Shown: positions 10,221 to 27,793 of the stretch, one piece after another
Layout: the number at the start of each line of letters is the position of its first letter
How positions within the stretch are numbered: the stretch's first letter is position 1
IMG/VR virus record: IMGVR_UViG_3300030104_001483
Coordinates: 1-27,793 of that record
Strand: one strand, 5' to 3'
DNA length: 27,793 nt
Origin: a virus
Notes under the pieces: model-generated
What the model was told of the DNA's origin: nothing
Database searches by the model: none
Seen by the model: the letters and a program-made list of their open reading frames with translations, nothing else
Program-made: the position numbers and the translations under genes

Positions 10221-11447
10221 TTAGGTTACACTCCATTTTGTCTTTCTAACTATACCAAATCTAGCTGCATAGGCTAAAGCATCCACCTGATCATCATGAG
10301 ATCCAGAGGATGGAAAGCTAGTTAATTCTCTTTCAAAGTCTAATAACCATTTAGCATTTTTCAAAAAGTATATCGTACCATTTTCAATACCTGCTGCTGC
10401 CGGTACTGCTCTAGCTGTTTTGCTTTTATCTGCCTTTAAGTTCCTTATTGGCAATCCCTGCCTCCTAGCCATTTGAATTATACCTAGACCAAAACTTGAA
10501 TCCTCAACACCTAGCCAAGCCATATTCCAATTAGAAATCATTGATTCAATCTTAGGTAGTAATTCAGGAGCTTCTAATCTAGCTCTAAAGACATCTAAAA
10601 CTAATAACTTGCCATCATTAGTAGATCCAACTGTCATTATTACTGAATAATCAGCAGTTTCTTTAATACTTAATGCTGTATCCATTGTGCCAAAGATTGA
10701 TAATTCAGATTCTTTATATACATTATCTTCAATAACATATTCAGGATCTTCTCCATCTATAACTTCAAAATACTTAAACCATTCTCTTTTGAACATATGG
10801 CCTACTTCTGTAAATTCAGCTAAGAATTCCTGAGCATAAACTAATGATCCGAGTTCTTCTTTTGCTTGATCTAACTCTTCTTTGTTTACTCTAGGAGAAT
10901 TTTCAGTAGGATAATGGAAAGTTATCCAATCTTTTCTTCTTTTAGCGTTTTCAAACAGTTCATAAAACCAATTTAATCCATTAGGTGTACTTATAAACAG
11001 ACCTTTACCTAAACTATCAGACAATATTGGTCTAACTGTATCCCACGTTTCTTTTTCCATATAAGCAACCTCATCAAAGATTATTAGTGAAATACCACCT
11101 GCACCTCTTAAAGATTCAGGTTTATTTGCTGATTTTATCTGTATGGATCCACCATTCTTTAAAACAATTCTTTTTTCAACCTCTCTTGTTTCTGCATATT
11201 CATCTGGTAATTGTCTAATTAAAGATTTTAAATTAAGCCAAGATTCTAATGCTTGTGGATATACAGGAAAGATAACCCATACTTTTTGACCTTTTAACGC
11301 TTGATCTACAGCTGCAACAAGTGATAATGTTGTTTTACCCCATCTTCTTCCGCATACAGCAATAACAAACCTTTTTTCATTAAGAGATTTTATTACTTCT
11401 ATTTGTCCAGAATGTAGATCAGGAGGAGTTGCCTCAATAATCTCCAT
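10221..11447 (-). CDS. terL: Terminase large subunit
   Basis: This is the ATP-driven DNA packaging motor with a headful or site-specific nuclease. With the ATG at 11447 (GGGA ribosome-binding site, 14-base overlap with TerS) it has 408 residues. Walker A is CGRRWGKTT (about residues 33-40), Walker B is SLIIFDEVAYM (FDE at 124-126). The C-terminal RNase-H-like nuclease has its acidic residues in IFGTMDTALSIKETADYS (Asp256), WLGVEDSSFG (315-316) and SGSHDDQVDALAYAAR (384-390). The frame is open further upstream to 11525, but that would bury 26 residues inside TerS. All key residues are present. Confidence 0.95.
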   Translation of the reverse strand: MEIIEATPPDLHSGQIEVIKSLNEKRFVIAVCGRRWGKTTLSLVAAVDQALKGQKVWVIFPVYPQALESWLNLKSLIRQLPDEYAETREVEKRIVLKNGGSIQIKSANKPESLRGAGGISLIIFDEVAYMEKETWDTVRPILSDSLGKGLFISTPNGLNWFYELFENAKRRKDWITFHYPTENSPRVNKEELDQAKEELGSLVYAQEFLAEFTEVGHMFKREWFKYFEVIDGEDPEYVIEDNVYKESELSIFGTMDTALSIKETADYSVIMTVGSTNDGKLLVLDVFRARLEAPELLPKIESMISNWNMAWLGVEDSSFGLGIIQMARRQGLPIRNLKADKSKTARAVPAAAGIENGTIYFLKNAKWLLDFERELTSFPSSGSHDDQVDALAYAARFGIVRKTKWSVT

Positions 11448-12077: not shown

Positions 12078-12259
12078 TATTTTCTAAAGCCAATCGTTAA
12101 TAACCATATAGCCAAAGTTATTACTGTTGCAATAGCTGTAATAGATTGAGCAGATCCAGAAAGCGTTAAAGTTGCAATAATTAAACCTACTAATGTCCAA
12201 CTAAGGTTTAAAGTTTCCTTAATTGCTTCTATTAACCAATTCCAAAGTTTTTTTATCAT
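12077..12259 (-). CDS. Two-helix small membrane protein
   Basis: This is a 60-residue protein with an amphipathic basic N-terminus (MIKKLWNWLIEAIKETLN) and two predicted membrane segments, about residues 19-36 and 40-57 (SWTLVGLIIATLTLSG, then ITAIATVITLAIWLLTIGF), ending RK. The ATG overlaps the stop of the acidic exported protein as ATGA (12256-12259). Size and topology would fit a holin or antiholin, but it lies far from the main lysis cassette at 18.0-19.0 kb. It may instead anchor or assist the upstream acidic protein. Function is unknown. Confidence 0.7.
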   Translation of the reverse strand: MIKKLWNWLIEAIKETLNLSWTLVGLIIATLTLSGSAQSITAIATVITLAIWLLTIGFRK

Positions 12260-14349
12260 CCTAATTTCCTAGTAAATACCATAGAAGCTAGAGATGCAAT
12301 TCTTGTAAGTATTACAGGAACTACAACCTCCTGAGCTTTTTCTTTCTGAGTTTCGCTTAAATCCGATCCTATTTCAGAAAAACTAAAATCTTCTAACTGT
12401 ATATCATCAATAATACTACCTATAGGATCCGCAACAAAATTTTCATAATTTATCTCAACAATTACATCCGCAATGTTATATTCCATTAAAGAATCATCTG
12501 CGTTCTCTACAGCTCTTTCAACAAACTCTGATACTGCTTGTTGTACATCTTCATCTTCTTTCGCAGCTTCTGCTATTTTTTGTACATCCTCAGCTTCTTC
12601 AAGGCCTAAAACTTCTTGTACAACTTCTATCTGTTCTTCTGTTAAGACTTCTTCTTCTTGTTGGATGATTTCAATAGACTCTTCAACCACTTCTGCCACG
12701 ATTGCAACTGTTTCTTCATTAACTTCATCCAAGTTTGATATGCCAACATCATTGATTTCTTCAACGATTGCAATGACTTCATCTGTATCCAATTCTTCCA
12801 CATATTCTTCTATTGCCTCCTCTAATTCTTCTTCATATTCTAGTATTTCTTCTTCAGAAAGCTCATCTTTATCAACTTCATCAATTTCAATAGGAAGATC
12901 TATTATTTCTTCTATAACCTCTTCTAATTCTGCAACTTCTTCTTTAACCATCTCCTCAGAAATAATTTCTTCATTATCCTCTGTATTGAATATCTCAAAT
13001 ACTTCAAATACAGTTTCTTCAACAAGTTCTTCATCTTCCACCATATCAACGATATCTTCAACAAATTCTTCTTCATTTTCAAATATAAGATCATCTTGCA
13101 CCTTTTCTAAATCTTCTATTATTTCATCTTCTGTAGGAGGAAATAAATCATTAGCTATAAATATATCTATTAAGTTTATATCTTCTTCAATAATAATTTC
13201 TTCTTCAAAATCATTAAATTCTTCTTCTAAGTCGTCAATATATTCTTCTATATCAATAATTACTTCAACAAACTCTTCAAATTCCTCTTCTGTTAGATCT
13301 TCAACAAAAACAAATTCTTCTTCTAATATTTCAAGCTCTTTTGCTTCTAACTCCATTTGATATTCTATTTCTTCAATTTCTTCTTCTGTAAGCTCAATAA
13401 TTTCAAAATCTTCTTCTATATATTCTTCCTCTATTTCAATTAATTCAATGTCATTATGATCTCTTTCTAACTGAGCATCTGTTACTGCTATTCCATATAA
13501 TTCTTCATTTCTAGCTCTTTCTTGATCTCTTTCAATAGTTCCATCATTTTGCTCTTTTTCTGTATAAGTAACTTCTTCATCTCCAACAACTATTGTTACA
13601 TTTGTACGTGCTTCTCTTTCTGCTCTTTCTTCATTCGTTTCGTTATATCCGGTTTCTGCCATATTATCTTCAACTTCAATAGCTTCTTGTATTTCCATTT
13701 CAATAATTTCTTGTTGAATAATTGCTTCTTCTTCTTCTCTAATACCTCTTTCATCATCTGTTTCCGATATACCATAAGATGCAAAATTTGCTTGTCTTTG
13801 TACATCTAATGGATTAAGAGTTGTAGTTGTTGTTGTGGTACCATCATATTTTATTTCTATATTATCTACTAAAGACCAATCGTTAATAGTAATAACAAAG
13901 CTATTAATAAATTTATTAGCAGTATCTTGTACAGAATAAACTACATCTTCATACATTTGTGCAATGTTCATACCTGTTTGTGCATCAATAGTGTTTGTTT
14001 GTGAAGTATCGTCATTGTGATTATAAGTTACTTCGCCCTCATTATTCATAGCTCCAATAGTGAAACCTACCTCATAAACATCATGATCTGTAGGTAAAGT
14101 AAATTCATAATCATTGCTAGTACCGCCATGTTTTTGATATTCAAGTTCTAAATGATTTCCATCCATGCCGCCATAATATTCCCAAGTATCATCAATTTTT
14201 ACTAAGGAATTATCAGTTGGAGGTATAACAATATCAGTAACTTGTTCCCCATCTTCAAATGTTTCTGTTTCTACAACTTCTTCAGCTATAACAGGATATG
14301 GAAATGCTAGAAAACATATTATAAATATTCTTAAAAACTTATTAGCCAC
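12256..14349 (-). CDS. Giant glutamate-rich exported protein
   Basis: This is a 697-residue protein of unknown function. A signal peptide is clear: basic start, hydrophobic core FIICFLAFPYPV, cleavage likely after Ala22 (PVIA-EE). Residues 35-170 form a globular, beta-rich domain (TWEYYGGMDGNHLELEYQKH, later VYEVGFTIGAMNNEG). A run of seven Thr (171-177) leads to three degenerate repeats around 192-205, 235-247 and 285-297 (pattern YGI-x-x-TD-x-ER-x-x-RE). About 350 residues then consist largely of Glu, Ile, Val and Asp with heptad-like spacing, then a C-terminus with VVPVILTRIASLASMVF and a basic end. The start is GTG at 14349 with no clear ribosome-binding site, overlapping a tiny upstream ORF. 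Role unknown; export to the periplasm or surface is inferred. Confidence 0.85.
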   Translation of the reverse strand: MANKFLRIFIICFLAFPYPVIAEEVVETETFEDGEQVTDIVIPPTDNSLVKIDDTWEYYGGMDGNHLELEYQKHGGTSNDYEFTLPTDHDVYEVGFTIGAMNNEGEVTYNHNDDTSQTNTIDAQTGMNIAQMYEDVVYSVQDTANKFINSFVITINDWSLVDNIEIKYDGTTTTTTTLNPLDVQRQANFASYGISETDDERGIREEEEAIIQQEIIEMEIQEAIEVEDNMAETGYNETNEERAEREARTNVTIVVGDEEVTYTEKEQNDGTIERDQERARNEELYGIAVTDAQLERDHNDIELIEIEEEYIEEDFEIIELTEEEIEEIEYQMELEAKELEILEEEFVFVEDLTEEEFEEFVEVIIDIEEYIDDLEEEFNDFEEEIIIEEDINLIDIFIANDLFPPTEDEIIEDLEKVQDDLIFENEEEFVEDIVDMVEDEELVEETVFEVFEIFNTEDNEEIISEEMVKEEVAELEEVIEEIIDLPIEIDEVDKDELSEEEILEYEEELEEAIEEYVEELDTDEVIAIVEEINDVGISNLDEVNEETVAIVAEVVEESIEIIQQEEEVLTEEQIEVVQEVLGLEEAEDVQKIAEAAKEDEDVQQAVSEFVERAVENADDSLMEYNIADVIVEINYENFVADPIGSIIDDIQLEDFSFSEIGSDLSETQKEKAQEVVVPVILTRIASLASMVFTRKLG

Positions 14350-19023: not shown

Positions 19024-20241
19024 TTACCTTATAACCCTAATATTACCCCATTTATCTTTTCCACCCAAAACCAATGTTAAAATACCTGATGCTGAATTTC
19101 CTCCATAAACATTGTCAAACCATTGGGATCCAGAGTCTAAACTAGGTGCTGTTGCAATAAGTCTATCTCCACCTGCATCAAAAACAGAAAACGTATGATA
19201 ATGCCCCATTAAAAGAACATCTGTATCTGCTGCCATTGATCTAGCTAGAGCTTGATTAGCTAACCAAGTTTTAGACTTTGCTTGATGATTAGATCCGCCA
19301 ACACGCATCTGATGGCCATGAACTAGCGATAAAACCACGTTTGAAATTTCAAAAGTTAAAGTTAATTCATTTTCTGGCATAATAAAATCTATTTTATTTT
19401 TAAAAGCAGGAGATTCTTTAAAGATTTCAGCTAATTCTTCTCCAAGCATTACATCCCTGTTATCTCCAAAAGTTGTGTAGGCTTTACCATTCTTTCTATT
19501 TTCTCCATGATTTCCTCCACAAAACGCAACTAAACCTTTATCAAACATAGGTACGATCTCTTTAATCATTGTATAGATCATTCTTCTAGCTACTTTTTGC
19601 TGCTGCCGATCATCTAATTCGGTAGTAAATTCTTGCATTGGATAGAATCCTGTACAACCCTCAACTATATCGCCTAATCCTGCAAACAAAACTTGATTAA
19701 TAGGCTCAGTTTTTCTTAATGCTTTAATCTGTTCTTTAATTACAGGTATTGCTGCCATCCATTTTTCAATAGTTTGTTCTGTACCCTCTTTTCCGATCTG
19801 AAGATCAGAAATACAAATTACATAAGTTTTGCCTTTTTTTAACTTCTGTTTTTTATAAGGTTTTATCTTTTTAGTACTATTTAATAGCTTTTTAAAATCA
19901 TCATCAGGCATTTGATTCTTAGAAGATACTATTTTTGCTTTAAAATAATATAATCTTTCTACGTTACCCTGCCCAATATTCATATCCCAGAATCTTATTT
20001 CCGCAGTTCCCTCAACAACTGAGTAATTATCAGCATCTTTGCCGAAATATGATTCAAGTTGATCTTTCCAATTAATTTGATTGGATTTTTGTGGAGATGA
20101 GACTATTTCTCCGGATTTTGTTTTTTCTGAGTAATAAACTGATGGCTCAAAGCCTTTTGGATGTTGTCTTGCCTTTTTATGGTATGGATTGCGATCTTGT
20201 ACTGTTTTTGCAAATTCTTCTAAATTATTTGATTCTACCAT
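19024..20241 (-). CDS. Calcineurin-like metallophosphoesterase
   Basis: This is a 405-residue protein. The N-terminal 135 residues are an accessory charged domain. The metal-binding motifs follow in order: ICISDLQIGKE (Asp146, with Gln148 where His is usual), AGLGDIVEG (Asp191), GGNHGENRK (Asn/His, 244-245), LVHGHQM (308-310) and MGHYHTF (346-349). This is the complete set for a two-metal phosphoesterase. Substrate unknown: nucleic acid or nucleotide cleavage is possible. The ATG at 20241 overlaps the upstream HTH-like gene by 17 bases, so the two may act together. Confidence 0.85.
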   Translation of the reverse strand: MVESNNLEEFAKTVQDRNPYHKKARQHPKGFEPSVYYSEKTKSGEIVSSPQKSNQINWKDQLESYFGKDADNYSVVEGTAEIRFWDMNIGQGNVERLYYFKAKIVSSKNQMPDDDFKKLLNSTKKIKPYKKQKLKKGKTYVICISDLQIGKEGTEQTIEKWMAAIPVIKEQIKALRKTEPINQVLFAGLGDIVEGCTGFYPMQEFTTELDDRQQQKVARRMIYTMIKEIVPMFDKGLVAFCGGNHGENRKNGKAYTTFGDNRDVMLGEELAEIFKESPAFKNKIDFIMPENELTLTFEISNVVLSLVHGHQMRVGGSNHQAKSKTWLANQALARSMAADTDVLLMGHYHTFSVFDAGGDRLIATAPSLDSGSQWFDNVYGGNSASGILTLVLGGKDKWGNIRVIR

Positions 20242-20476
20242 CTCTATAATCCTTAAAATATCGTCTTACTGTATTGTAATTAAGATGTGAAAATTGTTTG
20301 TAGTTATCAACTAAATATTGTGCTGCTACAGTATCTGAAATATAAGCATCTTTTGCTGCTTCAGCTACACCAATAAATAAGGATTTTGCTTCTGGATCTT
20401 TTAGGATCCATCTTTTTGAAGCATATTGCCCTGTTTTATATCCCTGTTTTTCAGAGTATTGTTCTAGTGATTCCAA
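20225..20476 (-). CDS. Small HTH-like protein upstream of the phosphoesterase
   Basis: This is an 83-residue protein starting at TTG 20476 with AGGAGG five bases upstream; no ATG lies nearby. It is all helical: EAKSLFIGVAEAAKDAYISD, then VAAQYLVDNYKQFSHLNYNT, VRRYFKDYRDGRIK. The final part looks like a helix-turn-helix recognition unit (YNTVRRYFKDY). It is coupled to the phosphoesterase by overlap. DNA binding is inferred. Confidence 0.6.
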   Translation of the reverse strand: MESLEQYSEKQGYKTGQYASKRWILKDPEAKSLFIGVAEAAKDAYISDTVAAQYLVDNYKQFSHLNYNTVRRYFKDYRDGRIK

Positions 20477-20481
20477 ATCAA

Positions 20482-20498
20482 CCTCCTACATAAGTAGG
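20482..20498 (-). promoter_or_regulatory. Small hairpin overlapping the ribosome-binding site of the TTG-start gene
   Basis: CCTAC (20485-20489) and GTAGG (20494-20498) form a five-pair stem with a four-base loop. The AGGAGG site (complement of 20482-20487) lies partly in the stem, so folding could limit initiation at TTG 20476. The stem is short and chance is possible. Confidence 0.25.
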
Positions 20499-20519
20499 AT
20501 AGTCAAATTTTATGACAAA

Positions 20520-20840
20520 TTATGATGGTTTTGGATTATCGTCTTTAACTTTTTTAACAGCTTTATACCAATTACCGGTTTTATCGCCTTTTGAATCGGT
20601 CATATCGTGATATAACATATCAAGTTGATCCCCAATAGCAGCATAAGCCTCTTGCCTAGCTCTAATATAACCATTATTTTGCTCGTCTAATTTAAACTGC
20701 GCTCTATCTTCAATAGCTTGATCGTATTCTGTATCTGTATATTGACGCCTTACGTTATTATTTTGTGCATATAAAGGCTTTTCACTTTCTATTTCAGAAG
20801 TAGCTTCAGTTCTAAATTGTTCAATTGTTTTAATAGCCAT
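20520..20840 (-). CDS. Tail-fibre-associated small protein (QLDMLYHD motif)
   Basis: This is a 106-residue protein. ARQEAYAAIGDQLDMLYHDM, then WYKAVKKVKDDNPKPS reproduces a widespread phage motif (R-x-x-AY-x-x-IGDQLDMLYHD, then a Trp and VK-x-x-x-PKP) found in small proteins encoded next to tail-fibre genes in many marine and other phages. The N-terminal half is charged and helical. It follows the six-gene tail array, in keeping with an assembly or structural role. The role is inferred from context. Confidence 0.7.
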   Translation of the reverse strand: MAIKTIEQFRTEATSEIESEKPLYAQNNNVRRQYTDTEYDQAIEDRAQFKLDEQNNGYIRARQEAYAAIGDQLDMLYHDMTDSKGDKTGNWYKAVKKVKDDNPKPS

Positions 20841-20868
20841 AATATTTCTCCTTTCCTTATCTTAGCAT

Positions 20869-21393
20869 TTATTTTCTTAGTCCGTAAAGTTTAAATTCTC
20901 CACTAGCTATGTTTCCACTACTTGCGTAGAAAGATACGCCATTTGTAGCTTGTGCAACTGTCAATACCCCACCACCAACATAAGACCTTGTATGCCCGTC
21001 TTCACTTTTCCCTGCTGTTTCGCAAGTAATAAAACTATATTCACTTGCATTATTAAAATTAAATAAATACAAAACACCATTAGCTTGCTCTTGCCCTGCT
21101 GTTCCCATATAATCTAAATAAAAAGTATCAGCATTTGTACTTGTACCTGTGCCAAAACTTGTGTTTGCTTTTAAAATTTTTACTGCTCTATCGTAGTTGG
21201 AAGAACTATCAACAGAGTTATCAGTTGTTTTTGTAAATCTTACATCTAAATGTGAAGCGTCTGTATCAGGTAATACATTATTAAAAGTAACCATATAAAC
21301 ATCATAAGAATTATCCCAATCAGTAGTTCCTAAAGTTACAGTTGCACTTGTACTAGCTGTTACACTATCTAATAAAATTAAACTACCTGCCAT
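20869..21393 (-). CDS. Tail array protein, type A, copy 2
   Basis: This is a 174-residue beta-rich protein, the last of six paralogues. Recognisable array features are the opening VTASTSATVTLGTTDWDNSY, YDVYMVTF, the NYDRAVKILKANTSF block, ASEYSF and the C-terminal strand pair ending SGEFKLYGLRK. It is most similar in plan to the gene at 22546-23055 (shared ASGxFxLY end, 'NIASG'). The LYG ending is common in virion tip proteins of marine phages. It probably assembles at the tail tip or fibre head. Start ATG 21393 overlaps the previous stop as TAATG. Confidence 0.65.
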   Translation of the reverse strand: MAGSLILLDSVTASTSATVTLGTTDWDNSYDVYMVTFNNVLPDTDASHLDVRFTKTTDNSVDSSSNYDRAVKILKANTSFGTGTSTNADTFYLDYMGTAGQEQANGVLYLFNFNNASEYSFITCETAGKSEDGHTRSYVGGGVLTVAQATNGVSFYASSGNIASGEFKLYGLRK

Positions 21394-21914
21394 TATCCTT
21401 TAACCCCATATACTGAAAATTTAGCACCCTCATCTAAAGTGCCACCACTTGGTAAAAAATTTATTCCTGTTATTACTTCTGCTGATTTATGAACTGTTAT
21501 ACCTTTACTACCTGTCAAAGCACCATCTACTTGACTACCCTGTACTGTTGTAAATGTATAAGAACTAGAACTATCTGGATTATAAACATACAGAATAAAA
21601 CCACCTACATCTTTATAATTAACACCACCCATAAAGGATAGTTCCATAAATGTTTGCCCTGTATTTCTTCTTTCCCCAAAACTTGTATCTGCCATCATAT
21701 CCATATGTGCATAATCATATTCACTTGCTGATATAACACTTCCACCACTATCTAAAAATCTTGCTTGTAAATAAGCCACATTACTAGAACTAGACATATG
21801 TGTTATTGATATTGCATAAACATCATAACCTCTGTTAAAACAATCAGTTAAGGTAACAGAACTTGCACTTGCAATATTATCAAAAGATTTTATAAATTGT
21901 AAATTAGTAGCCAT
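21393..21914 (-). CDS. Tail array protein, type B, copy 2
   Basis: This is a 173-residue protein with the array core: ASSVTLTDCFNRGYDVYAIS, YLQARFLDSGGSVISASEYD, YAHMDMMADTSFGE, SSSSYTF, GKGITVHKSAEVITG (SKGITVHKS in the text) and the end KFSVYGVKG. It has the same length as the type B gene at 23055-23576 and shares with it SGSVI-x-AS-x-YDYA, YNP-x-SSSSYTF/FNPYSSSSYTF, I-x-GI-x-F and the GT-x-D (or GTLDEG) region. It is beta-rich, with no signal peptide; a probable virion tail-tip component. Confidence 0.65.
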   Translation of the reverse strand: MATNLQFIKSFDNIASASSVTLTDCFNRGYDVYAISITHMSSSSNVAYLQARFLDSGGSVISASEYDYAHMDMMADTSFGERRNTGQTFMELSFMGGVNYKDVGGFILYVYNPDSSSSYTFTTVQGSQVDGALTGSKGITVHKSAEVITGINFLPSGGTLDEGAKFSVYGVKG

Positions 21915-22543
21915 TATGAATACCTTATTCCGTAAAGGGAAAATGAGCCTGTAAATGTACCAACATCATAAGCCATAATTTGAAATTTATTTACACTACT
22001 TGCTTGAGGTAAAACATTTGAGCCAAATGATGCTTGAACTTCACTACTATTACTCCAACCAGTAAAGTGTTGTGTTACAAAACTATATTTTGCACTGTCT
22101 AAAAAATTATAAAAATATAAATATCCATTAATGTTACTTTGCGTATCACTTGTTGAAGTATTATTACCAAATCTAAAAGCATTTTTTGTAGTGCCTCTAT
22201 CTTCTGCAAAAAAACTTGGTGTACAATCTTGTCCAGCAAGTTGATAAACAGTACTACTTTCTAAAACTCCACTTTCATAAAGTCTTATTGCTATACCTTT
22301 GCCATTAGTAGTGTTATAGCCATCATTAATGGTTAAAAAGTGAACATTGTAATTTCCTAAATCATCAAAATCTACAGTTGAAACTGCACTTGTTATTGTT
22401 TTAGTTTCAATTAATTCTAATTGTCCATAGTTAGTGTATTTATCTGCTCTTGTTAGATCATAAATATCATTTGGCGAGAAAATACCTGTATTATTCCCAA
22501 AACTTTGAGCAGGGCTTTCAGGTATATATCCATATTCACTCAT
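21914..22543 (-). CDS. Tail array protein, type C, copy 2 (with N-terminal extension)
   Basis: This is a 209-residue protein. An extra N-terminal segment of about 35 residues (MSEYGYIPESPAQSFGNNTG, then IFSPNDIYDLTRADKYTNY) precedes the array core LELIETKTITSAVSTVDFDD. A parallel extension is present in the gene at 23573-24184 (GLYNPSKILQLTKDGSWGG, LELIESQTVSSAVAQVDF). The start of this extension may insert the protein into a larger assembly. Its end is FTGSFSLYGIRYS. The stop of the upstream gene lies two bases before ATG 22543. Confidence 0.65.
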   Translation of the reverse strand: MSEYGYIPESPAQSFGNNTGIFSPNDIYDLTRADKYTNYGQLELIETKTITSAVSTVDFDDLGNYNVHFLTINDGYNTTNGKGIAIRLYESGVLESSTVYQLAGQDCTPSFFAEDRGTTKNAFRFGNNTSTSDTQSNINGYLYFYNFLDSAKYSFVTQHFTGWSNSSEVQASFGSNVLPQASSVNKFQIMAYDVGTFTGSFSLYGIRYS

Positions 22544-22545
22544 AA

Positions 22546-23055
22546 TTACACCACCTTATATAAGGTAAAAGTACCACTTGCTATATTGCCTGTAGTATAA
22601 TATAGATAAACACCATCAACTGCACTTGCTACTGTAAATACTATTCCACCTTGACTTCCATAATTATCATTTCCACTATCTACATTAGAACTTTCTGTTG
22701 TCATAAAAGTATATTCTGAAGAATTATTAGCATTATAAATAGGAAAAATTCCATTAGTTGTTTCAGAAGTTCCTGTTCCATTTGTGTGGTTTGTTATATT
22801 AACACCTGCTGAATTTGTACCTGATAAATCTAAAAAAGCACCTCCTGTTTGCATATACATTTGTGCATAATCATAATTTGATGTGCTATTTGCTGTTCCA
22901 CTTTCAGTAAATTTAAGTCTTAAATAATAATTATCTGAAGCAGGTGCTACATTATTTAAAACTAATTGATACACATCATCTGAATTAATCCCAACTAAGG
23001 TAACACTAGCTGTTGCACTTGTTACTGTATTTGTTGCTACTTGAACTAAACCCAT
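22546..23055 (-). CDS. Tail array protein, type A, copy 1
   Basis: This is a 169-residue protein with array features VTSATASVTLVGINSDDVYQ, SNYDYAQMYMQTGG, NNSSEYTFMTTESSNVDSGN, GIVFTVASAVDGVYLYYTTG and GNIASGTFTLYKVV. It parallels the gene at 20869-21393 (VASAVDGVYLYYTTGNIASG against VAQATNGVSFYASSGNIASG). Start ATG 23055 overlaps the previous stop as TAATG. It is predicted to be an all-beta virion protein. Confidence 0.65.
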   Translation of the reverse strand: MGLVQVATNTVTSATASVTLVGINSDDVYQLVLNNVAPASDNYYLRLKFTESGTANSTSNYDYAQMYMQTGGAFLDLSGTNSAGVNITNHTNGTGTSETTNGIFPIYNANNSSEYTFMTTESSNVDSGNDNYGSQGGIVFTVASAVDGVYLYYTTGNIASGTFTLYKVV

Positions 23056-23576
23056 TAATCTACTCTCAATCCATAAACCGAAATTACTAAAGTATCAATA
23101 GTTCCACTATTAGGTGTAAATTGAAATCCTGTTATAGAACTTTGTTGTTTAAGTACTGCAATCCCTTTACCTAAAATTGTTACAGTACCATCTGAAGCAC
23201 CTGCTTGTTGCCCTAATTGAAATGTATAACTACTAGATGAATAAGGATTAAAGAAATAATAAACTGCACCACCATTACTTGCTGTAACTGCGTCCCCTCT
23301 AATAATTTTATCCCATTTATCTTGATTAGTTGCCTTTGCCTCAGCAAAAGGGTTATAGCTTAATAGTTCTAAAAGTGCATAATCATAATTACTTGCAGTA
23401 ATAACACTTCCACTTGAATTTATTAATCTCATAAAAACATTATTATCTGCTGAATAATCTTGTTGTTCTAATACAACTTTATAAATATCAAAGTCTGTTG
23501 AAAAAACATCAGTTACAGAAAAAGAACTTACACCACTTGTTGCACTTTGTTTGCTAATTAATCTTAGGTTACTCAT
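23055..23576 (-). CDS. Tail array protein, type B, copy 1
   Basis: This is a 173-residue protein: SGVSSFSVTDVFSTDFDIYK, then NVFMRLINSSGSVITASNYD (with the YDYALLELLSYNPFAE block), YFFNPYSSSSYTFQLGQQAG, GKGIAVLKQQSSITGFQFTP, ending VISVYGLRVD. It is the counterpart of 21393-21914: equal length, and SSGSVITAS against SGGSVISAS. The ATG at 23576 overlaps the previous stop as ATGA. It is a probable tail-tip or fibre component. Confidence 0.65.
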   Translation of the reverse strand: MSNLRLISKQSATSGVSSFSVTDVFSTDFDIYKVVLEQQDYSADNNVFMRLINSSGSVITASNYDYALLELLSYNPFAEAKATNQDKWDKIIRGDAVTASNGGAVYYFFNPYSSSSYTFQLGQQAGASDGTVTILGKGIAVLKQQSSITGFQFTPNSGTIDTLVISVYGLRVD

Positions 23577-24184
23577 ATTTGTTTTACTCCAAAAATTTTT
23601 GCAGTTCCCTGTGTAAAATTTGCACCTGTGCTATTAAATATTCTTAAAGCATTTATTGTTTCAGCAACTGCATATACACCACCACCAAAATAACCAAATA
23701 TATTACTGCCATCTACACCAACTGGGCTTTGATTTGTTATAAAACTGTACTTTGAACTATTACCTAAATTGTATAAATATATATATACTTGATAAACATT
23801 TGTACTGTCTTTAGTAGCTAAATAAGACATTTCACTTGCACTTGTACTTCTTCTTTCAGTAAAAGTTGTACCAAATCTTTGCATAGCATATTGATAATTA
23901 GAACTTTCAAAACTACTACCACTATCATTTGAAAATCTTAAAGTTAAAATGTTTGTGCCAGATACAGTTTCAAAGTTATTTAATTGCAAAAAATGTACAT
24001 CATATTTGCTTTCTTGAATAGAAGTAAAGTCAACTTGTGCAACAGCACTACTTACAGTTTGGCTTTCAATAAGTTCTAAGCTACCACCCCAACTACCATC
24101 TTTGGTTAATTGCAGTATTTTACTCGGATTATATAACCCAATATTCTTTTTAACATTATTTGGCTGTGTACCTAAGTAAGGCAT
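23573..24184 (-). CDS. Tail array protein, type C, copy 1 (with N-terminal extension)
   Basis: This is a 203-residue protein, first in the array. The extension MPYLGTQPNNVKKNIGLYNP, then SKILQLTKDGSWGG is followed by the core LELIESQTVSSAVAQVDFTS, YDVHFLQLNNFETVSG, SNYQYAMQRFGTTFTERRST, LYNLGNSSKYSFITNQSP, VDGSNIFGYFGGGVYAVAET and the end QGTAKIFGVKQI. The TQPNNVKKNIGLYNPSK opening resembles the conserved N-terminal anchors (YLG-x-x-P) of marine phage tail fibre or virion proteins, so type C genes may attach the others to the particle. Confidence 0.65.
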   Translation of the reverse strand: MPYLGTQPNNVKKNIGLYNPSKILQLTKDGSWGGSLELIESQTVSSAVAQVDFTSIQESKYDVHFLQLNNFETVSGTNILTLRFSNDSGSSFESSNYQYAMQRFGTTFTERRSTSASEMSYLATKDSTNVYQVYIYLYNLGNSSKYSFITNQSPVGVDGSNIFGYFGGGVYAVAETINALRIFNSTGANFTQGTAKIFGVKQI

Positions 24185-24195
24185 AAATTACCCTC

Positions 24196-24522
24196 CTAAG
24201 TTTGTCTCAAAAATGTTACGTTATATTCGGCACTTGAAGCTGCTGAACATAGTCCTTGCAACTTATCGCCTGTTTCTAATGTTATCTTTGTTTGTATTTC
24301 AATAGTTGTACCAAAAGGTAATGATACATTATTTAACACGTGCCTTAATGTACCACCTGATTTTGTTACAGATAGATCTATAGTTACATCAGCACTACTT
24401 GAACTTACATTAGATACCAAGATTCCAATTACAGTTTCAGTTGTTGAGCTAGGAACAGCATCAACAATATCTCCTGCTGATGTACCTAGTACTCCCTGAA
24501 CTGAATGTAATGTATCTGCCAT
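24196..24522 (-). CDS. Small beta-rich structural protein
   Basis: This is a 108-residue, Ser/Thr/Val-rich protein: DAVPSSTTETVIGILVSNVS, then ADVTIDLSVTKSGGTLRHVL, then LPFGTTIEIQTKITLETGDK and LQGLCSAASSAEYNVTFL. The pattern is that of a compact beta-sandwich, matching small phage virion proteins that sit near fibre genes (typical ending: 'GD-x-L-x-x-x-SAAS-x-x-x-V-x-x'). Located between the fibre-like gene and the six-gene array. A virion role is inferred. Confidence 0.6.
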   Translation of the reverse strand: MADTLHSVQGVLGTSAGDIVDAVPSSTTETVIGILVSNVSSSSADVTIDLSVTKSGGTLRHVLNNVSLPFGTTIEIQTKITLETGDKLQGLCSAASSAEYNVTFLRQT

Positions 24523-24536
24523 AATTTATTCCTTTC

Positions 24537-24986
24537 CTAAGATAGAGCTAATACTAATCCTAAAGTTACGCCTCCTGCTAAGTTAGCGATATCTCCTGCT
24601 GTTGTTTTTTTAAGATTATTGCTGTCGTTAATATCTCCAAACAATATTTCATCTCCTGATGCTACTGTACCAGATGTTGCTGAGTTTGGTTTTACACTTA
24701 AACTAGGTGTACCGCTAGTCGCACCACCTGCTAAACCTGATGTAGATCCTGTAGTAATACCCTCAATATCTCCAGATTCTGCAGTTGTCCAAGCTGAGCC
24801 ATTCCACGCTTTTAAGAGATTCGCTGTGGTATCGTAAAACAAAGTTCCCTCAACTTTATTTGTAAGAGCTGAGTTAGCTGCACTTTCAGAAGCGTAAATA
24901 AATACTATTGAATCTTGAATATCTTGAAATCTTGATTCTGTTACAAGATCTCCTGTACTCCAATCAAACCATGCACCGGCTGCCAT
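24537..24986 (-). CDS. Tail-fibre-like protein
   Basis: This is a 149-residue protein. MAAGAWFDWSTGDLVTESRF is followed by a short helix and VEGTLFYDTTANLLKAWNGS, the widely seen fibre motif (GTLFYDT-x-x-x-x-LK-x-WNGSAW), then a Gly/Ser/Thr-rich low-complexity repeat region (GITTGSTSGLAGGATSGTPS). The C-terminus is hydrophobic (GDIANLAGGVTLGLVLALS). It is a short fibre subunit rather than a full fibre. It follows the hub-like gene. Confidence 0.65.
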   Translation of the reverse strand: MAAGAWFDWSTGDLVTESRFQDIQDSIVFIYASESAANSALTNKVEGTLFYDTTANLLKAWNGSAWTTAESGDIEGITTGSTSGLAGGATSGTPSLSVKPNSATSGTVASGDEILFGDINDSNNLKKTTAGDIANLAGGVTLGLVLALS

Positions 24987-25003
24987 AAATCTCCTTTTTT
25001 TTT

Positions 25004-26248
25004 CTAAGTATAACTTATATTAGTATCAATTCCTAGTTTAGAAACTCCTAAGATCCAAGCTCCGGTTTCTGCCGGAGAAAGACCAATAAACCAATTCCAA
25101 CTGTTATCAACAGCATTTACAGTATGTTTTATTCTTTCTATAAACAATTCAAATGTTTCAGTAGTTCCTGCTGCTGTTGTTACTTTAGCTTCAACATAGG
25201 ATCCTATGTCTAATCCTAATGCTTTAGGCCATAAAGATACGTTTTGTTTAGGTGCAAATGACAATGAATCTACTCTTGTTTGTGGTATATCGTTTGAGAC
25301 AACTATTTGATTAGCTATTGAAGATACATCAGAATCCTGTATATTTAATGTTCCTGATTGTGTTAAAACATTAGTACCAAAACTTTGAATTGAACTATCA
25401 CTAACTGCTGTTTGAGTAGATCCTCCTGTTCTAGTTCTTTGTACAGTATTAACAATTTTATCATCATCATAACTTGTAACAATATCAATATAAGGTAAAT
25501 CTGATCCGCCTTGACCAAACGTTGCAGCAGGCGTTGTAGTAGATGTTAATCTGTAATTTCTATCTCTAAAAGTAGCTTTACCATCTGCTGCTATAAAAAA
25601 TGTACCATTTTCAGCTAATGAAACTGCTCTAAGTGCAGCAAGTATTGTATCTGTTGTTGCTTGTGTTTGTACTTGTAATTGTCCTGTAGATATAGTTTGT
25701 AAGCTGTAACCAAAAGAATCTAATATATTTTTAGCTCTTACTGATGATAATTCTTGTGCTTGTGTCAAAGTTAAGCTAGTTGTTTGTCCTAACGTTGATA
25801 AGCCTAATTGCCATCCATGAGCATCTAAAGTAGCATTTGCAAACAATTTAAACGCATCTACACATTTTAATTTAGTTTCTGAATCAGATCCTTGTGCAGG
25901 ATAATTAACAGGAAAATTTTCAACAAAACCATAAAATATTGTGTAAGTTGTTGAACTGTACGCAGCTTTAATTCTAATTCTTTTTAATGGTTTAATTTTT
26001 GTTGATGCTGTACCAGAATCATAATAATAATCTGTTTGATTAGGAGAAAAACGATTATCTCTGTTATCTAATACAACTGTAGCTGTAGATGGATTAAATT
26101 CTGATAAGTTTGTTGCTCTACCTCTATTTATACTAAATCTACGCAAATAAGCTGTAACATCTGTAAATGATTGTGAATCATCTAGCGGATTTGAATCAAA
26201 AGCAATTTCTACAGTTAAAGTAACATTAGAATCAAAAGCAACACTCAT
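25004..26248 (-). CDS. Baseplate hub / distal tail-like protein
   Basis: This is a 414-residue protein immediately after the tape measure, the place of baseplate hub or distal tail proteins. FDSNPLDDSQSFTDVTAYLR, then FSINRGRATNLSEFNPSTAT, VVLDNRDNRFSPNQTDYYYD and LKRIRIKAAYSSTTYTIFYG match a common marine siphovirus minor-tail family ('RG-x-x-x-x-L-x-x-F-x-x-G-x-x-x-V-x-LDN-x-DR-x-F-x-P'). The rest is beta-rich with KQNVSLWPKALGLDIGSYVE and an ending of NSWNWFIGLSPAETGAWILG. The start ATG 26248 overlaps the tape-measure stop as ATGA. The exact hub role is inferred. Confidence 0.75.
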   Translation of the reverse strand: MSVAFDSNVTLTVEIAFDSNPLDDSQSFTDVTAYLRRFSINRGRATNLSEFNPSTATVVLDNRDNRFSPNQTDYYYDSGTASTKIKPLKRIRIKAAYSSTTYTIFYGFVENFPVNYPAQGSDSETKLKCVDAFKLFANATLDAHGWQLGLSTLGQTTSLTLTQAQELSSVRAKNILDSFGYSLQTISTGQLQVQTQATTDTILAALRAVSLAENGTFFIAADGKATFRDRNYRLTSTTTPAATFGQGGSDLPYIDIVTSYDDDKIVNTVQRTRTGGSTQTAVSDSSIQSFGTNVLTQSGTLNIQDSDVSSIANQIVVSNDIPQTRVDSLSFAPKQNVSLWPKALGLDIGSYVEAKVTTAAGTTETFELFIERIKHTVNAVDNSWNWFIGLSPAETGAWILGVSKLGIDTNISYT

Positions 26249-27793
26249 TGCAAGGCATAACCTAATTTTGATAGTTTTTCTTGTGTTGTTTGTAAAAATT
26301 CTTCTGCTGTATCAGATAATTCAATTTTAACAATAGTATCGCCATTTCCATTACCAGATCCTGCTGAATTGTTTGTAACCAAAGATTCATCTCCAACTAA
26401 TGGAGGAGGAACAGGAGGAGGGCTACCGCCACCTGTTGCAGGAGGAGGAGCAAAACCGCCACCTCCAGATCTTTCTATAGCTAAAAATTGACGTAATAAA
26501 TCTATTTGCCTTTGTGTTGCATCTGCATTTCTTTTTTTAGCTTCTGTGTTTTTATTAAGAGCTTCATTTTCATAAACAAGCATATCTCTACTATCTTGAA
26601 TAGCTTTAGATCTTCTTGCTATTGCTTTTTCTAAGTTTGTCTCTGCCAAATTAAGTACATCTCTAGCTAAAACTAAACGATCTGAATCATTAGCTAATTC
26701 AAACTCTGCTTCTGCTAGTTCTGCTTGTGCTAAAGCTAATTCTGCTTTAACATCTTTTCCATCACTTTCAGCTCTTGTTAATATTCCAATTTGTGTTGCT
26801 AATTCATTTTTTCTAATAGCTGCTTGTGCATCAGCTATATTTTCTGCTATTTGTAATTCTTGTAAATCTTTTGCTGCTTTATTTCTATTTTTTGTTGCAG
26901 CTGCTACATCATCATTAGCACTTGTTACAAGATTCATAATTTTAGTTCTATCCATCTCTAATTGCATATTTGTTAGTAATAATGCGTTCTGTTCTCCAAA
27001 TATTGGATTTAAAAATCTGTCTATAGTATCTGCAACTTTTTTATATTGTACTTGTTGCTTTAATGATCCCTGCCTACTTCTTTCAATATGTTTGTTTAAA
27101 GTTTGTATATTACCTGTGTAATTTTCCCACATATCTGATTGTTCTTTAGCAATTTTATTAATTTCCCTTTGTTCATCTGCTAAATCACTAAAGTTTCTTA
27201 TTAAGTGCATTACACCTTGATCAAGAGAACTTAATCTATCTAATGCTAAAACTAAATCAGCTACACCTGTAGCAAACAAACTGAAACCTCTAATAAGACT
27301 AGGCGTTACATTTTGAGCAATTTCTCTTATTACAGGCAACAATGCTGCTGCCGCAGGTATTAATTCTTTTCCAATTTCTTCTCTTAATTCTCTTAATTCT
27401 GCATTTAACATTAATGATGAAGCAGCAAATCCATCAGCTTCTCTTTGTGCGTTTCCTAACTGTACTCCTGCTTGATCATAAGCTATTTCAATAGTTGCTA
27501 ATGCTTTATCTTGTAAAGTTAATTCGCTAACTGTTTTTGCTAAACCTAAATTAAATGCTTTTTGTTGCACCATTGCTTCGGTTATTTTTAAACCATACGT
27601 AGCTAACGATTCTCTTTCTCCTGCGATACCTGATCTAAAAGCTGCAATAACAGGTAATGCACCTTGTTGTAAGTTGTTAAATGATGCAATGTCTCCAGAA
27701 AGTTTAAAAACTCTTATTGATAAAGCTGCTGCTTCTTCTTCTGTAAATCCAATACCCTGAGCAACAGATCCAAATACAGATATTAATTGTTGT
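26245..27793 (-). CDS. Tail tape measure protein, copy 2 (N-terminus cut by window edge)
   Basis: The frame is open from the right edge to TGA 26247-26245 (about 515 residues). The N-terminal part visible starts at QQLISVFGSVAQGIGFTEEE, aligning with QQLQATLGAVAQGIGFTQEA of copy 1, so about 120 residues are missing. The middle is helical; the C-terminal third is nearly identical to copy 1, ending in Gly/Pro-rich sequence (SGGGGFAPPPATGGGSPPP) and a final helix (EFLQTTQEKLSKLGYALQ). The internal ATG at 27573 is not the true start. Followed directly by the hub-like gene, as expected for a tape measure. Confidence 0.9.
   Translation of the reverse strand, partial: QQLISVFGSVAQGIGFTEEEAAALSIRVFKLSGDIASFNNLQQGALPVIAAFRSGIAGERESLATYGLKITEAMVQQKAFNLGLAKTVSELTLQDKALATIEIAYDQAGVQLGNAQREADGFAASSLMLNAELRELREEIGKELIPAAAALLPVIREIAQNVTPSLIRGFSLFATGVADLVLALDRLSSLDQGVMHLIRNFSDLADEQREINKIAKEQSDMWENYTGNIQTLNKHIERSRQGSLKQQVQYKKVADTIDRFLNPIFGEQNALLLTNMQLEMDRTKIMNLVTSANDDVAAATKNRNKAAKDLQELQIAENIADAQAAIRKNELATQIGILTRAESDGKDVKAELALAQAELAEAEFELANDSDRLVLARDVLNLAETNLEKAIARRSKAIQDSRDMLVYENEALNKNTEAKKRNADATQRQIDLLRQFLAIERSGGGGFAPPPATGGGSPPPVPPPLVGDESLVTNNSAGSGNGNGDTIVKIELSDTAEEFLQTTQEKLSKLGYALQ
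26475..27034. repeat. Right copy of tape-measure homology (pairs with 1-560)
   Basis: Bases 26475-26551 equal 1-77 exactly. Ungapped similarity extends to about 27034, then the sequence diverges, with a net length difference of 12 bases over the remaining overlap to the window end. The 77-base exact match at the very start of the contig has the length of a common assembler k-mer. Confidence 0.9.

Follow-up and report, generated by a model that had tools for sequence, protein, structure and literature searches.

The 27,793-nt stretch of viral DNA analyzed here (hereafter the window; IMG/VR record IMGVR_UViG_3300030104_001483, of whose 28,117 bases it covers 27,793) carries at positions 20869-24184 of its minus strand six consecutive related genes, read in the order C1, B1, A1, C2, B2 and A2. 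We propose that a marine siphophage probably uses the products of this array as a double device for host recognition, in which the product of the preceding gene (x108) would serve as a dock for two independent hetero-oligomeric C:B:A heads. Our confidence that the array product is a recognition device is high, and it is moderate for the sharing of one head by C, B and A. In the proposed mechanism, each cassette would yield one head built from three homologous beta-sandwich domains, most simply in a 1:1:1 ratio. The N-terminal extension of C would act as a plug, with B and A, which lack it, carried on C, and x108 would be a tail socket into which C1 and C2 both fit with their plugs, so that each virion might display two different heads at once. 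Recombination would exchange heads between phages, wholly or in part, with plugs and socket remaining matched. Physical contacts, 1:1:1 stoichiometry, virion location, the receptor, receptor binding and simultaneous display are the parts of this model that we infer.

The main evidence for a dock and two heads as functional units is covariation, a statistical signal that suggests contact between parts and does not demonstrate it. Searches with A2 and the upstream tail protein yielded 98 viral loci, and the between-phage distances of each part were compared over 43 complete arrays, 28 of which have full flanks including the upstream backbone genes. Over these 28, x108 correlates with the N-terminal anchors of C1 (0.81) and C2 (0.77), and the two anchors with each other (0.68), against -0.01 and 0.18 for x108 and the remaining domains of C1 and C2, the C1 domain being located between x108 and the C2 anchor. 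The same arrays give 0.38, 0.49 and 0.47 for C1 domain-B1, C1 domain-A1 and B1-A1 in head 1, and 0.59, 0.63 and 0.66 for C2 domain-B2, C2 domain-A2 and B2-A2 in head 2. Values between heads span 0.00-0.20 (B1-B2 0.00, A1-A2 0.10). The upstream backbone proteins t414 and x149 covary with each other (0.54), and show -0.07 to 0.13 with the dock and -0.24 to 0.09 with the heads. Partial correlations given t414, x149 and y106, the gene after the array, are nearly the same, and a permutation test over the 43 arrays gave p 0.002 for the C-centred pairs of the dock and head groups. C, B and A of a cassette covary as partners inherited as a set.

The same figures bear on an alternative that we regard as unlikely, namely that the six proteins each form their own homotrimer, giving six small fibres, and that order and covariation reflect operon structure and block transfer. 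Linkage of this kind predicts covariation between the adjacent A1 and C2 domain, yet their r is just 0.10-0.11, while the C2 domain and A2, with B2 between them, reach 0.57-0.63. Linkage alone also fails for x108 and the C2 anchor, because the latter lies three genes away; plain linkage would predict the reverse of the high distant and low adjacent values. Separate homotrimers have in their favour that phage fibre tips are commonly regarded as homotrimeric, that the domain does exist in single-gene form within longer fibre proteins and that neighbouring genes are often exchanged jointly. Against them, B and A show no visible attachment segment and the gene order is constant in 406 adjacent pairs.

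A second line of support for the dock comes from the N-terminal extension of C, which its sequence relationships mark as a probable swappable anchor module. A profile of its first type (type i) matches PF21722 glycine-rich proteins found in the same slot of other loci (L048, E 8e-14; L056, E 9e-9), and a second type (type ii, MPLGxARxGL) is found on the C proteins of phages lacking x108 and on the glycine-rich proteins of L068 and L085-L087. Among loci with a visible x149, x108 is present with type i in 27/27 and absent with type ii in 13/13, and two further arrays lacking x108 (L157 and L188) also start with MPLGAxRFGL. The t414 tree places three independent anchor/x108 switches on well-supported branches (five on all branches), every one in the same direction; the anchors of L021 and L033, left unassigned by the automatic procedure, were set manually to types i and ii, respectively. 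Identity of x108 is 91-96% between phages whose t414 is just 44-48% identical, and x108 has therefore moved between distant backbones. In six-gene arrays with x108, the C anchors are clearly more conserved than the C domains (0.69 and 0.62 against 0.34 and 0.36), a difference that is weak across mixed anchor types (medians of 0.39 against 0.35 for C1 and 0.31 against 0.35 for C2).

Behind the glycine-rich proteins in the slot, a small companion, which is phrog_7759 in the tested cases, takes the place of B and A. One locus (L067:10534-11876) has a glycine-rich protein and its small companion between cassettes 1 and 2, a mixed array with both kinds of head. The slot holds other genes as well. 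At L085:13520-14668, a tryptophan halogenase match (PF04820, E 8e-40) follows the glycine-rich adhesin-like gene in the C-B-A position, and an open reading frame (ORF) similar to this halogenase-like protein is seen by eye at L068:13565-14641 and in the L086/L087 duplicates. In L056, the alternative slot holds a protein of 168 aa (10276-10782) that may, by eye, be 2-oxoglutarate/Fe(II) oxygenase-like, a class also found among the proteins of marine phage islands (PMC3909814).

The six array genes are paralogues whose similarity is not due to chance, with E-values between subtypes of 1e-5 to 1e-23. In all-against-all BLASTP comparisons, A1-A2 (35% identity), B1-B2 (36%) and C1-C2 (32%) are each reciprocal best by bit score, the remaining pairs showing 24-31% identity and lower scores. 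Grouping by cassette, with neighbours closest, is rejected: forcing C1, B1 and A1 of the window into one clade costs 239 log-likelihood units (approximately unbiased (AU) test, p 4e-73). The original prediction, made from the DNA sequence by itself, had described six related consecutive genes paired in this manner, with lengths of 169-209 aa, two B proteins of exactly 173 residues, NYDYA-like, SSSYTF-like and C-terminal YG[ILV] blocks and an extension of about 35 residues on the C subtype. This description is borne out throughout, since all six ORFs are open, the blocks (the second as SSxYTF) are visible in the six-protein alignment and an N-terminal extension of some 35-40 residues is found on C1 and C2 alone. 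No part of the six-protein alignment is sufficiently conserved to serve for scanning the collection. The A2 protein is matched along its full length by phrog_14820, a family with no assigned function, for which A1 gives E 0.096 and B1, B2, C1 and C2 no match.

In related phages, six- or three-gene arrays of the family recur at the same site, between x149/x108 and y106. The C, B and A proteins form separate clades that split first in the tree, each largely divided into cassette-1 and cassette-2 members, and the three-gene arrays fall mostly with cassette 2. Both the tree and the existence of three-gene arrays support the predicted history of triplication followed by block duplication. With leave-one-locus-out profiles, subtype and cassette were both assigned correctly for 72/72 genes from 12 six-gene arrays. 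Three more scans covered further contigs, a set that partly overlaps the contigs of the first scans and is not strictly new throughout, and revealed 0 violations of the order C>B>A>C among the 406 adjacent pairs. Complete six-gene arrays follow exactly C1 B1 A1 C2 B2 A2 in 41/42 cases (37 clusters at 90% identity), and coupling is tight, with a 1-nt overlap at the B1>A1 junction in 19/19 and a 4-nt overlap at C1>B1 in 15/19. Of the arrays of three, six or nine genes that had been suggested as worth seeking in relatives, the first two were found and no nine-gene array was seen in the scanned contigs. The three-gene array of L188 has cassette-1 types, and gain and loss of a cassette are for this reason indistinguishable. 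Two loci show irregular C2 genes that represent either real disruption or sequencing error: C2 is split into two short ORFs at L070:4647-5197, and it is truncated to 78 aa at L162:7174-7410, where B1 was also not found.

These features also bear on the two functions that had been suggested for the array. Covariation within cassettes, an anchor on C alone, the strict order of the genes and their coupling favour a hetero-oligomeric receptor-binding tip. A reservoir from which alternative or spare modules are used one at a time might account for multiple paralogues and for the strong variation between near-identical phages, but we give it almost no credence: the window has no broken or silent copy, its genes are coupled in one direction and the copies are position-specific orthologues in dozens of phages. 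Window positions 20200-25100 contain no inverted repeats of at least 18 nt, which speaks against the reservoir and, together with six open ORFs and the lack of silent copies, against an inversion or phase-variation cassette.

The array is hypervariable on a constant backbone. Between L006 and L012, t414 and x108 are 100% identical and the six array genes only 35-66%; the same contrast is seen between L082 and L083 and between L008 and the window. Within C1 of L006 and L012, identity is 94% for the anchor and 42% for the domain, and the C2 of the window is 84-85% identical to that of L080, with 35-49% for the other array genes. Since near-identical phages diverge in the array, heads or parts of them must have been replaced on a constant backbone. 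Such variation fits the published hypervariable recognition islands of marine phages (PMC3909814). A decorative or other non-recognition structural role in the virion is very improbable in light of this variability, of the glycine-rich adhesin-like genes that occupy this slot with the same anchors and of the use of the domain in tail fibre proteins, even if weak matches to solved structures and a binding role reached by inference leave it some room.

AlphaFold2 (AF2) models, which cover A2 and C1, predict a beta-sandwich for both. The A2 model is all-beta, with 12 strands and a predicted local distance difference test (pLDDT) score of 95.8; that of C1 (pLDDT 86.8) combines residues 1-14 below 50, a helix at 20-28 and a beta domain mostly above 90. 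For these two proteins, the shared jelly-roll fold that had been anticipated holds as a predicted common beta-sandwich, and the term itself is imprecise, as solved-structure matches are weak galectin/laminin-G/GH16/GH32 types with a TM-score of 0.41 or less. In the galectin/ConA-like comparison, the Foldseek probability rises to 0.9, yet the TM-score is about 0.4 and the root-mean-square deviation 7-8 A. Membership in the C1q/TNF family was rejected, as neither model has such a domain among its 50 best PDB fold matches. A PDB sequence-profile search returned nothing significant and the A1 protein of L006 had no match among phage records. Against predicted viral structures (BFVD), A2 has 110 matches at E<=0.001, with TM-scores up to 0.95, several of them longer proteins named tail fibre, Stf-repeat or collagen-repeat. 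A 468-aa protein of L015 has an N-terminus matching PHROG tail proteins and the family domain at residues 287-465, its C-terminal part matching phrog_14820, and in a 241-aa protein of L098 an x149-type N-terminus is fused directly to the family head domain. Hence, the modelled fold of A2 and C1 appears to be also that of the tip of many phage tail fibres.

The compactness of the two modelled proteins, which lack coiled-coil or shaft segments, is at odds with a distinctly improbable arrangement in which C, B and A would be stacked in series as anchor, middle and tip, like segmented fibre genes, and not side by side. A fixed gene order, an anchor on C only and the position of A as the subtype closest to pelagiphage relatives all speak for stacking. 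However, the C domain covaries with A as strongly as with B, and B is therefore not an obligatory middle piece.

Further triads of the family occur in Pelagibacter phages HTVC019P (gp45-47), HTVC010P (AGE60300-302) and HTVC034P (gp37-35), each with three consecutive genes for proteins of about 205 aa that are annotated only as hypothetical (hidden Markov model E 1e-21 to 1e-28). Like the array of the window, they consist of consecutive paralogues of the same family, theirs lying downstream of tail fibre genes and being largely orthologous, as a, b and c, between phages; unlike it, they comprise a single cassette. All nine proteins fall into a single clade, separate from C, B and A of the siphophages (support 100; 99 with one more pelagiphage protein), and tests reject a grouping of a, b or c with C, B or A (p 4e-7, 3e-4 and 6e-4). 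Their triplication would therefore be independent of the siphophage one, and the triad seems to have arisen at least twice, although the long stem leaves some model risk. In L100:7636-9471, L101:7510-9468 and L102:8259-10088, the three paralogues resemble one another in an N-terminal segment of about 22 residues with an NN motif, possibly the pelagiphage paralogues' own anchor. More generally, it is conceivable, if somewhat short of an even chance, that abundant marine phages use three-paralogue heads in place of homotrimers, that many display two of them on a shared socket and that such heads have at least two origins, one in siphophages and another in SAR11 podophages.

Several observations weigh against the proposed double device. 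The Fisher p of 8e-11 for x108 and anchor type is too strong, because it ignores the relatedness of the loci, and the independent switches on well-supported branches number only three, with L021 counted as type i even though its anchor missed the threshold. Covariation within cassettes could be due in part to block exchange of neighbouring genes. Between L030 and L031, C is 98% identical, B 46% and A 48%, so that C was kept without the same B and A and the partners are changeable separately. Structural models concern just two of the six proteins, and no ligand-binding site can be named from solved-structure matches as weak as theirs. Finally, a similar N-terminus on all three pelagiphage proteins means that the rule of an anchor on C alone is not valid in that group.

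The window (G+C 32.6%) comes from a tailed phage, since its genes match terminase large and small subunit, portal, maturation protease, major head protein, head-tail connector and tail tape measure families. It is probably a siphovirus, judging by the tape measure and tail genes, and a SAR11 (Pelagibacter) host is only suggested, by the low G+C and by Pelagibacter phages being the sole matches of A2 among phage records; a whole-window nucleotide search found no close relative in the phage record collection. The backbone marker used in comparisons, t414, has relatives at 103 places in viral contigs. The partial tape-measure ORF at 2-1687 and an ORF at the opposite end (26245-27792) match the same part of phrog_28918. 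A minus-strand ORF of 697 aa (12256-14349), which matches nothing in Pfam or PHROG, overlaps a plus-strand ORF of 295 aa (12473-13360).

Table 1. Genes of the array and its flanks in the window, with proposed roles.
Gene	Length (aa)	Position	Strand	Proposed role and features
t414	414	25004..26248	-	Conserved tail protein upstream of the array; phrog_5313, E 8e-33
x149	149	24537..24986	-	Conserved upstream tail protein; partly tail-fibre-like (PHROG tail fibre, E 8e-6)
x108	108	24196..24522	-	Gene before the array; proposed docking protein for both C anchors, from co-occurrence and covariation
C1	203	23573..24184	-	Putative anchor subunit of head 1; type i anchor at residues 1-~34, then predicted beta-sandwich head domain
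B1	173	23055..23576	-	Putative second subunit of head 1; no anchor; 4-nt overlap with the end of C1
A1	169	22546..23055	-	Putative third subunit of head 1; no anchor; 1-nt overlap with B1
C2	209	21914..22543	-	Putative anchor subunit of head 2; type i anchor at about residues 1-39
B2	173	21393..21914	-	Putative second subunit of head 2
A2	174	20869..21393	-	Putative third subunit of head 2; phrog_14820, E 3e-14
y106	106	20520..20840	-	Conserved gene directly after the array; downstream edge marker

Were this model correct, the unannotated gene block that many ocean phages carry would constitute a modular host-recognition device, and each virion could test two receptors. The strict conservation of a paralogue triad, together with its apparently repeated evolution, suggests an advantage of asymmetric heads in these phages. 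From the finding that dock and heads covary separately follow specific, testable predictions of contacting parts, and host-range units might become readable from metagenomes.

The metaviromic islands of marine phages, pelagiphages included, hold variable lectin-like, C1q-like and carbohydrate-binding proteins near tail genes, with a proposed role in host recognition (PMC3909814). Like the array, these islands are highly variable and close to tail genes; unlike it, they are described, in the passages considered, with neither a triad of paralogues nor a docking protein or covariation, and the terms duplicat and paralog are absent from that paper. The PF21722 glycine-rich proteins occupy the same slot as C and share its anchors in related phages, but their distal domain is unrelated. 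Glycine-rich adhesins of the gp38 type, such as that of Salmonella phage S16, offer a comparison for them. Our literature search found no paper that combined all the terms used for paralogous heterotrimeric phage receptor-binding proteins, and the heterotrimeric parts of phage A-1(L) are baseplate wedges and not heads. The multi-protein adhesion devices of the lactococcal siphophages TP901-1 and p2 combine a separate scaffold or dock with receptor-binding heads at the tail tip, and these heads are homotrimers. Likened by description, the array shares their division into dock and head, but each of its heads would be made up of three paralogues.

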